From Allobosea sp. 47.2.35 (GTDB lineage: Bacteria > Pseudomonadota > Alphaproteobacteria > Rhizobiales > Beijerinckiaceae), in assembly GCF_024655635.1 (NCBI RefSeq), contig NZ_JANLGI010000019.1:1-64000 (forward strand): a DNA stretch of 64,000 bases, given 5' to 3'. The notes beneath the pieces are model-generated. The model saw nothing but the letters and a program-made list of their open reading frames with translations. It searched no databases and was not told the origin of the DNA. Every line of letters begins with the position of its first letter. Position 1 is the stretch's first letter. Shown here one piece after another: positions 27,726 through 30,897 of the stretch. The translations under genes were made by a program, and so were the position numbers.

Positions 27726-28700
27726 TCATGGCCAGACAGGTGCGCCGTCCAGCCCCGTCGTTTCTGGCAGCCCGCAGATCAGGTTCGCATTCTGCACGGC
27801 CTGCCCGGCCGCACCCTTGCCGAGATTGTCGACCACGCCCATCGCGATCACCAGATCGCGCTCTGGGTCGGCCGCGTAGCTGACGAATGCGAGGTTGGAG
27901 CCCGTAGCCCATTTGGTTTGGGGCGGCTTGTCGGTCACGCGGACGAAGGACCGCCCGGCATAGAAGCGCCGCGCTGCGTCCAGGCACTGCTCGGTATTGG
28001 CGCGGCCGCGGCAATAGATCGTGGCGAGTATGCCGCGGGTCATCGGCACCAGGTGCGGCGTGAACACCAGCCCGGCCGCGCTGCCGCCACTCAGCCGCTC
28101 GATCGTCTTGGCAATCTCGGGCATGTGGACGTGCTTGAGCAGGCCATAGGGCACGAGGTTCTCGTTGCTCTCGGCGTAGCCAAACGTGCTGTCGCCGCCG
28201 CGGCCGGCACCTGAGATGCCCGTCTTGACGTCGATCACGATATTGCCGGGCTCGATCAGTCCGTTGACCAGCAAGGGCGCCAGCGCGGTCAGTGTCGCTG
28301 CCGGGAAGCAGCCGGGATTGGCGACACGCGTCTGGCCGCCGATCTCGGCCGGCCAGATATCGGCCAGACCGTAAGCCCAGCCTTCGACATAGCGGTGGTC
28401 GCCGCCGATATCGACGATCTTCACGTGCTTGGGCACGCGCGCCAGCGCGTCGGCCGACGCACCCGTAGGCAACGACGCGAACAGCACGTCGAGCTTGGGC
28501 AAGGTCGCAGGATTCCACTTCTCGATCACCAGTTCGGCCAGCTTGGCCGGCGCACCGGGGAAGCGATCCACCAACCGGCTGCCGGCGCTGCTCTCGCCCG
28601 CAGCATAGACCAGCTCGAAAGACGGGTGGCTGGCGATCAGGCGCAGCGCTTCACCGCCGCCAAAGCCACTGATTCCGACAATGCCGACGCGGATCTTCAT
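27726..28700 (-). CDS. argC: N-acetyl-gamma-glutamyl-phosphate reductase
   Basis: A 324-residue reductase. It starts MKIRVGIVGISGFGGGEALR (NADP-binding GxSGFxG), has SLPTGASADAL, and the catalytic Cys131 in VANPGCFPAATL. It reduces N-acetyl-glutamyl phosphate to the semialdehyde in arginine synthesis. Family members of this type are about 310-350 residues. The ATG lies only 22 bases downstream of an intrinsic terminator hairpin, and upstream of that is an arginine-rich leader frame, so expression is likely controlled by attenuation (see the leader and terminator entries). The gene appears to stand alone, convergent with nadE. Confidence 0.9.
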   Translation of the reverse strand: MKIRVGIVGISGFGGGEALRLIASHPSFELVYAAGESSAGSRLVDRFPGAPAKLAELVIEKWNPATLPKLDVLFASLPTGASADALARVPKHVKIVDIGGDHRYVEGWAYGLADIWPAEIGGQTRVANPGCFPAATLTALAPLLVNGLIEPGNIVIDVKTGISGAGRGGDSTFGYAESNENLVPYGLLKHVHMPEIAKTIERLSGGSAAGLVFTPHLVPMTRGILATIYCRGRANTEQCLDAARRFYAGRSFVRVTDKPPQTKWATGSNLAFVSYAADPERDLVIAMGVVDNLGKGAAGQAVQNANLICGLPETTGLDGAPVWP

Positions 28701-28721: not shown

Positions 28722-28760
28722 GGCAAAAGAAAACCCCCGGAGCCTAGGGCTGCGGAGGTT
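28722..28760 (-). terminator. intrinsic terminator in the argC leader (attenuator)
   Basis: On the minus strand AACCTCCG (28760-28753) pairs with CGGGGGTT (28739-28732), with an inner AGCC-CTA-GGCT stem, followed by TTTCTTTT (28731-28724). It sits between an arginine-rich leader frame and argC, 22 bases before the argC start, so it would stop transcription ahead of argC unless disrupted. The leader segment GGGCTGCG (plus-strand 28840-28847) is exactly complementary to CGCAGCCC in the 5' half of this hairpin (plus-strand 28747-28754) and could form a competing antiterminator. Confidence 0.8.
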
Positions 28761-28803
28761 CAGGGACGCGGGTCGGGGTCGCTTCGGCGGATGATACCTA
28801 CGA

Positions 28804-28911
28804 TCAGGCCGTCATCATGCGGAAGAACGCTGGTCGACGCGCAGCCCGAAGAGCCGCCGCTCGTGTGAAGCAGCGTCGGCGTCGGTCACAGCGGTTCCGG
28901 TTCCTGAGCAT
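28804..28911 (-). CDS. candidate arginine-rich leader peptide of argC
   Basis: A 35-codon frame upstream of argC, beginning MLRNRNRCDRRRRCFTR, in which 12 codons are arginine (positions 3, 5, 7, 10-13, 17, 22, 25, 26, 31). It ends 44 bases before the terminator hairpin. A ribosome stalled at codons 10-13 for lack of charged Arg-tRNA would leave codons 22-24 free to pair with the terminator's 5' arm and allow read-through into argC. The weak points are the lack of a good Shine-Dalgarno sequence before this ATG, an alternative in-frame GTG at 28923, and the general arginine bias of GC-rich frames. Confidence 0.6.
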   Translation of the reverse strand: MLRNRNRCDRRRRCFTRAAALRAARRPAFFRMMTA

Positions 28912-28994
28912 GTCCCGCGACACTGTCGCGATGCCCGTCCATCGTCAAGCGCAACGCCCGCTTTCGCACGCGGCAAGGTAGTCTCCGCACCCAA

Positions 28995-29024
28995 CAAAAA
29001 AGCCCGCGGCTTGCGCCGCGGGCT
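28995..29024 (-). terminator. intrinsic terminator of the peptide ABC operon
   Basis: A perfect 10-bp stem, AGCCCGCGGC at 29001-29010 and GCCGCGGGCT at 29015-29024, with a four-base loop, followed on the minus strand by six T residues (28995-29000). It lies 22 bases after the stop of the double ATPase gene and ends that operon before the argC leader. Confidence 0.9.

Positions 29025-29046: not shown

Positions 29047-30897
<1,851 letters not shown>

Follow-up and report, generated by a model that had tools for sequence, protein, structure and literature searches.

Attenuation is the textbook mode of control for the trp, his, leu, ilv, thr and phe genes; arginine is usually thought to be controlled by repressor proteins. 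Four described systems come close to the locus considered here. In E. coli, the leu and ilv leaders are ribosome-mediated transcription attenuators (PMC6123439). The trpL leader ORF of Sinorhizobium meliloti is leaderless, starting at AUG (PMC10117765), and the cysS uORFC-8-2 motif of Rhodobacterales has been proposed to be a ribosome-mediated attenuator (PMC8632094). Closest among bacteria is the Salmonella speF leader, in which two Arg codons of orf34 mediate arginine control by way of Rho-dependent termination, the speF ribosome-binding site and RNase G (PMC6386406); both gene and mechanism differ from those of the present locus.

The window, meaning the whole 64,000-nucleotide stretch of Allobosea sp. 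47.2.35 DNA that was analysed, contains on its minus strand an argC gene preceded by a leader. This leader very probably controls argC as a ribosome-mediated transcription attenuator responsive to arginyl-tRNA. The features of the locus are as follows.

28948-28725, minus strand: conserved leader, member of a conserved family
28920..28948, minus strand: probable promoter, with -35 TTGACG at 28948-28943, a 17-nt spacer and -10 CAGTGT at 28925-28920
28804..28911, minus strand: leader ORF of 35 codons plus stop, probably leaderless, with ATG at 28911 and TGA at 28806-28804
28873..28884, minus strand: proposed regulatory codons Arg1-4, which are codons 10-13, CGA CGC CGA CGC
28855..28875, minus strand: hairpin 1:2, pairing Arg codons 28875-28870 with GCGGCG 28860-28855
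28835..28860, minus strand: candidate antiterminator 5′ strand, GCGGCGG 28860-28854 plus GGCTGCGCGTCG 28846-28835, as suggested by folding
28752..28775, minus strand: candidate antiterminator 3′ strand, linker GACCCGCG..CC 28775-28764 plus terminator 5′ arm AACCTCCGC 28760-28752
28840..28847, minus strand: GGGCTGCG, complement of 28754-28747, a possible alternative antiterminator helix
28725..28760, minus strand: intrinsic terminator, hairpin 28760-28732 with T-rich tail to 28725 (terminator scan and pairing)
27726..28700, minus strand: argC, N-acetyl-gamma-glutamyl-phosphate reductase, TIGR01850 type (profile and structure matches)
29001..29024, minus strand: separate terminator of the upstream ABC-transporter gene, a 10-pair stem plus T run

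Several of these elements had been recognized in a preliminary description of the locus, and the window sequence bears them out. The 35-codon frame (28911-28804) is present with its 12 Arg codons, as are the four consecutive Arg codons at codons 10-13; across relatives, only the consecutive run is kept, and the total of 12 is not. The terminator, previously placed at 28760-28722, is seen as a hairpin with T-rich tail at 28760-28725, separated from the leader stop by 43 nt and from argC by 21-24 nt depending on the tail end chosen (44 and 22 in the preliminary description). The 8-nt complement between codons 22-24 and the terminator is likewise exact, joining GGGCTGCG (28847-28840) and CGCAGCCC (28754-28747). 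Upstream, a peptide ABC-transporter gene ends at 29047, and its separate terminator points to independent transcription of the argC leader. The single-sequence folding energy of the leader is unremarkable (z -1.05), and the case therefore rests on conservation.

In the proposed mechanism, transcription would begin at or beside the leader ATG, and the leader ORF would be translated without a Shine-Dalgarno sequence from a presumed leaderless start. With charged tRNA-Arg ample, the ribosome would clear codons 10-13 and hairpin 1:2 would re-form behind it, whereupon the terminator would halt RNA polymerase before argC. With arginyl-tRNA scarce, the ribosome would be expected to wait on the Arg run, covering segment 1; the freed GCGGCGG...GGCTGCGCGTCG would then pair with the linker and the terminator 5′ arm, and argC would be transcribed under what is presumably control by arginine. 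Judged from this organization, argC is probably switched on when arginine is short.

The promoter region is consistent with such a start. The distance from the start of TTGAC to the ATG is 37 nt in 60 of 75 distinct leaders, 38 nt in eight, 36 nt in four and 35 nt in two; in one leader the box was not found. The -10 of the window (CAGTGT) ends 8 nt before the ATG and is weak, a promoter scan giving no sigma-70 match there; the Acetobacteraceae form of the -10 is TACCGT. Given the TTGAC spacing, the 17-nt spacer and a -10 ending 8 nt upstream, transcription is expected to start at or next to the leader ATG, and the leader ORF is probably leaderless. The preliminary description was right that a good Shine-Dalgarno site is missing; a probable leaderless start would account for its absence.

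It had also been proposed that argC upstream regions be aligned across related genomes. The set assembled here consisted of the window and the best 80 of 204 argC relatives, making 81 loci, 80 of them assessable because L060 starts inside argC. A terminator pattern lies within the last 110 nt before argC at 50 of these 80 loci, and an ATG with an Arg run is present at 49 of the 50 (the exception, L033, has lost its 5′ end); the GCTGCG core of the 8-nt complement is paired in 49/49. The other 30 of the 80 loci carry no leader. The ATG precedes the Arg run by 27 nt in 38 leaders and by 30 nt in 11; the difference, between two lineages whose pre-Arg sequences are unlike, is exactly one codon. Conservation extends from roughly 15 nt ahead of the -35 to the argC stop, where it tails off. 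Organisms bearing the leader, by the titles of their records, include Bosea, Methylobacterium, Reyranella, Vineibacter, Roseomonas, other Acetobacteraceae and a genome labelled Asaia, which places the element, on sequence comparison, in several groups of Alphaproteobacteria.

A covariance model built from the 49 leaders was used for genome scans. It finds one strong copy in the source genome, the next hits being weak (24.8 and 15.2 bits); L084, a weak source-genome hit, shows no such leader on inspection. Within the genus, 28 leader copies occur in 27/67 genomes, and these are the same 27 that carry the window's type of argC, with leader and gene one-to-one (28 of each if two partial argC matches of G408 count as one gene). 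Strong matches are also present in 31/75 genomes of the family of G280, which its relatives suggest to be Reyranellaceae. In a class sample of 385 genomes, 29 have a match at E 0.01, with full leaders in the source genome, G280 and G358; the other 26 matches have E 0.0002-0.01, and the four of these inspected (L089, L090, L092 and L096) show no such leader. An ArgC start lies no more than 90 nt from the terminator in 56/57 extra loci; at the exception, L136, the ArgC text pattern was missed, yet argC directly adjoins in the genus comparison.

Sequence comparison shows the parts of the leader, its linkage to argC and the ATG with its in-frame Arg run. The 75 distinct leaders, which include 26 beyond the first 49, were selected by requiring an ATG followed in frame by an Arg run, and so these two features are not independent evidence in that set. 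It leaves out L033 and L185, which share one truncated leader lacking ATG and promoter, as well as L194, which was missed by the final pattern though an ORF with six Arg is present. A non-circular set was therefore anchored on the antiterminator strand and terminator only, and comprises 108/138 loci and 78 distinct stretches. In 77/78 distinct leaders there is an ATG 45-51 nt before the anchor (51 nt in 65), the exception being the truncated L033; as background, a comparable stretch further upstream has an ATG in 22/108. In the ATG frame (n=77), the longest Arg run is five codons in 40 leaders, four in 30, three in six and six in one, whereas runs of at least three occur in the other two frames in 1/77 and 0/77. 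This is the strongest single result from the comparison for translation of the run.

The run is also distinctive in codon choice. Among the 75 leaders, Arg1 is CGA in 74, Arg2 is CGC in 74, Arg3 is CGA, CGT or CGC in all 75, and Arg4 is CGC or CGT in 72. CGA makes up 5/170 Arg codons in five window ORFs, yet it is Arg1 in 74/75 leaders; CGG, with 26/170, never appears at Arg1-4. In most bacteria a single tRNA decodes CGA, CGC and CGT, so one tRNA may be all that the run reports on. By parsimony over the 75 leaders, changes at codon positions 1, 2 and 3 of Arg1-4 number 4, 2 and 12, the run being required for entry. Codons 2-9 accumulate about 9 changes per site (72, 80 and 71 at positions 1, 2 and 3); they give no coding signal and no third-position excess, and no peptide conservation is therefore claimed there. 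Codons 18, 20, 23 and 24 show 0, 3, 1 and 0 changes, and the linker about 7 per site. After the Arg run, the frame is broken in 13/49 leaders (14 by program, of which L074 was a false match on reading).

The hairpins are highly conserved. Across 49 leaders, hairpin 1:2 over the Arg codons has 98.6% of cells paired, with one-sided variation and no double changes, and it forms in folding models without a ribosome or with the ribosome far downstream; the terminator hairpin has 99.0% of cells paired, again with no double changes. The 8-nt helix is paired in 93.8% of cells over its 8 pairs versus 30-56% when slid, and lacks covariation because it is hardly variable. As modelled, this 8-nt match is one of several alternative pairings. 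Folding also yields a longer, interrupted helix, in which GCGGCGG pairs with the terminator 5′ arm and GGCTGCGCGTCG with the linker's conserved CCCGC region, followed by an inner hairpin. This longer candidate antiterminator is paired in 90.1% of cells versus 41-51% slid, and has a covariation score of 0.194 versus 0.055-0.090 slid; its structure was derived from the same alignment. It shows 40 double-change cells, which count sequences, not events, versus a shuffled mean of 15.9, and 0/500 shuffles reach the observed covariation score or double-change cell count. Pairs with double changes number 8, equal to the shuffled mean of 8.0, and pair types number 37, below the shuffled 39.5. The helix between GCGGCGG and the terminator arm is paired in 99.4% of cells and invariant, and the linker helix is paired in 93.1% with one-sided changes only; double changes are confined to the inner hairpin, leaving the two key helices of this candidate without any.

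The dependence of these pairings on ribosome position, and which antiterminator forms, come only from folding models. For the 75 leaders, a transcript ending in the terminator loop was folded with the ribosome A site moved along the codons. With the A site on Arg1, Arg2, Arg3 and Arg4, the GCGGCGG:terminator-arm helix has mean probabilities of 0.29, 0.47, 0.53 and 0.45, although at Arg3 17% of the leaders do not exceed 0.3. The value is 0.00 without a ribosome, 0.15 and 0.01 one and two codons past Arg4, and no more than 0.02 elsewhere, except for 0.05 one codon before Arg1. Pairing of the terminator arm with any upstream sequence amounts to 0.67-0.83 on Arg1-4, 0.30 without a ribosome, and 0.26-0.29 with the ribosome at the ten most distal positions beyond the run. 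Before the run it is 0.50-0.57, for which reason slow early translation might also antiterminate. When the 5′ end is left free to pair, the longer helix is weaker (0.18-0.24 on Arg1-4) and equally position-specific. The sequestration switch is 0.53 with native and 0.05 with shuffled linkers, the native value being larger in 73/75; however, 68/600 linker shuffles reach the native stalled value, and some of the effect follows from the set-up itself, in that a ribosome covering the Arg codons releases their pairing partner.

The preliminary description supposed that stalling at the Arg cluster would free the 8-nt segment to pair with the terminator, and suggested folding the leader in both states. 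In the models, stalling does favour upstream pairing of the terminator arm, but through the longer helix, which is position-specific on Arg1-4. The 8-nt helix is favoured just before the run: its probability is 0.41-0.79 with the ribosome there, including 0.69-0.79 when the A site sits roughly one to four codons short of the first Arg codon, and 0.07-0.28 on Arg1-4. As the main switch it was rejected, since in 49 leaders with the ribosome placed at each codon it does not rise on Arg stalling (mean 0.10 stalled, 0.13 free; higher in 27/49). The longer helix was found after the 8-nt helix failed, and was thus picked from the data; its checks are the slid-partner control, the linker shuffle and the 26 further distinct leaders. 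It is the better candidate of the two, not a proven one, and there is modest confidence, from these models, that it acts as the antiterminator in preference to the 8-nt helix or both. For the full transcript at equilibrium, the terminator wins in both states (0.96 and 0.95). Such folding is for that reason uninformative, and antitermination would have to be kinetic, decided during transcription, as it is in other attenuators.

By profile match, the downstream gene is predicted to act in making the leader's own amino acid, arginine. The window argC scores 287.8 bits against TIGR01850, above the cut-off of 233.6, in a profile search, and its best solved matches are ArgC structures (top 1vkn, E 5.9e-73). 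A second argC, of the TIGR01851 type, is located in the source genome at G000:C22:141392-142327 (L002), near an ORF that resembles an agmatinase gene. In the genus, TIGR01851 argC is found in 66/67 genomes and the window's type in 27/67; 26 of these 27 have both, and G443 has the window's type only. Given the near-universal TIGR01851 ArgC, the attenuated argC is, on gene content, an accessory (spare) copy. It belongs to a distinct subfamily present in 6/385 class-sample genomes at E 1e-100, three of them with the leader; in the three others (L172, L175 and L176) none is seen by eye.

The surroundings of related argC genes vary. At L031, L047, L049 and L051, a leaderless argC directly follows, by eye, a frame whose end resembles another ArgC, so two argC types may share one operon there. 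At L030, L042 and L057, also by eye, argC without a leader stands just after an apparent acetyltransferase gene. Other loci without a leader, L014, L016, L020, L034 and L040 among them, have in common an upstream block of another sequence (CTTGTTCGCTCACTCCAGCAGTAGGACACC, in some accompanied by TTGACATGCCCGACG farther from the gene), which reads as an alternative promoter region of a different kind serving this gene family. Downstream of the argC stop, L003, L008, L009, L011 and L017 share by eye a short hairpin-like block (e.g., GGCGGGCCT..AGGCCCGC), possibly argC's own terminator.

The neighbourhood of the leader is likewise variable: the longest flanking ORFs, called mechanically at 48 leader-bearing loci, are 91 ORFs in 77 clusters, the largest of three. 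One genus genome, G410, holds two full leader copies. The element is also carried on plasmids, with 15 plasmid records giving a match and four examined. In the Agrobacterium copy L205 (2477-2741, Ti plasmid pTiCFBP4996) the leader is shortened and contains two Arg codons; the plasmid leaders of Methylobacterium (L206) and Roseomonas (L207) contain five and four, and the Paracoccus plasmid copy L208 has no leader. From such patterns, leader and argC are read as a single-gene cassette passed between genomes. An ArgC tree of 81 proteins and two poor outgroups gives 12 leader changes, 2 of them forced by well-supported branches, with bootstrap not settled; it is weakly resolved and hence unfit for counting leader gains and losses or testing transfer. 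On pTiCFBP4996, the argC cassette of L205 is flanked by genes for an SDR oxidoreductase and a TetR-type regulator. At G358:C1:2590577-2590684 (L114), a second, decayed leader without terminator is joined to an apparent decayed argC piece and reads, from its sequence, as a dying second cassette.

A leader this strongly conserved and structured, with segments nearly invariant, might also work without translation, as a riboswitch-like RNA with arginine or a related metabolite as its direct ligand, its Arg codons being a by-product of a GC-rich hairpin; the codons do overlap a conserved stem, and codons 2-9 lack a coding signal. This is very unlikely, since the ATG is nearly fixed (77/78) and the Arg run is in its frame in 77/77 despite lineage-different sequence between them, the promoter-to-ATG spacing is near-fixed, and the Rfam scan gives no match at gathering score. 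Translation might instead act through the peptide. In the fungal arginine attenuator peptide, defined by a conserved arrest peptide sequence, the peptide stalls the ribosome with arginine as ligand. A nascent-peptide arrest leader of this kind would fit the finding that Arg4 is followed by an Arg or Cys codon in 65/75 leaders. However, the part of the peptide preceding the run varies freely (about 9 changes per site) and is unlike in the two lineages, 13/49 leaders do not keep the frame intact beyond the run, and, unlike in the fungal peptide, conservation between lineages does not extend past the Arg run. This reading ranks slightly below the riboswitch-like RNA.

Just as improbable is a leader that serves mainly as the source of a trans-acting small RNA, with the terminator as its normal 3′ end and argC control secondary. 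The terminated product would be leaderless and about 187 nt long, somewhat like Sinorhizobium rnTrpL (PMC10117765), but all strong genus leader matches adjoin argC, as does the sole remnant leader found (L114), next to its decayed argC piece. A trans role of the leader RNA could nevertheless exist alongside attenuation. Ribosome-mediated attenuation, the trp/his-type logic that the preliminary description had put forward for arginine, is supported by the framing of ATG and Arg run, the conservation of terminator and hairpin, and the linkage to argC in the genus.

The Rfam scan of the window, T-box included, gave no match at gathering score; three matches fall below threshold, the best being ctRNA_p42d at 25.3 bits (threshold 50). 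An arginine-biosynthesis attenuator was not found in Rfam or in the open-access literature searched; arginine does not occur in PMC1183508, and neither arginine nor argC in PMC2965389. The earlier remark that no such leader was known in Hyphomicrobiales holds for these sources, although the element is not confined to that order. There is a somewhat better than even case that this is the first known bacterial ribosome-mediated arginine-biosynthesis attenuator, travelling with argC as a self-contained leaderless cassette (promoter, Arg-codon leader, terminator and argC) on chromosomes and plasmids of several alphaproteobacterial groups, and that the recipient gains a spare, starvation-inducible ArgC beside its housekeeping ArgC. 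With a conserved attenuator for arginine, the mechanism would reach beyond its textbook cases to an amino acid usually assigned to repressor control. The at least 75 distinct leaders form a natural series on codon choice and antiterminator design versus sensitivity, and the spread of the cassette raises the question why a second ArgC moves among genomes already having one.

Like the trp/his/leu-type attenuators (PMC6123439), the argC leader combines a short ORF containing codons for the product amino acid with a proposed choice between antiterminator and terminator before a biosynthetic gene; unlike them, it would use arginine, a long, interrupted candidate antiterminator that draws on the linker, and a single accessory isozyme gene. 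It resembles S. meliloti trpL/rnTrpL (PMC10117765) as a probable alphaproteobacterial attenuator with a presumably leaderless ORF, a property read in the argC leader from promoter spacing only, whereas that system concerns tryptophan and a different gene. As in the speF leader (PMC6386406), consecutive Arg codons in a leader ORF would sense arginine by ribosome pausing and the RNA would refold; however, the speF leader controls ornithine decarboxylase through a DUF2618 peptide with two Arg codons, and its HIRRT core, as quoted there, is absent by eye from the leader peptides described here, where the gene is argC. The cysS uORFC-8-2 motif (PMC8632094) is similarly an alphaproteobacterial uORF with tandem codons of one amino acid, but those are cysteine codons before a tRNA synthetase gene. 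The argC leader, then, would follow the trp/his attenuator logic with a new amino acid, a probable leaderless start, a long candidate antiterminator and an accessory gene.
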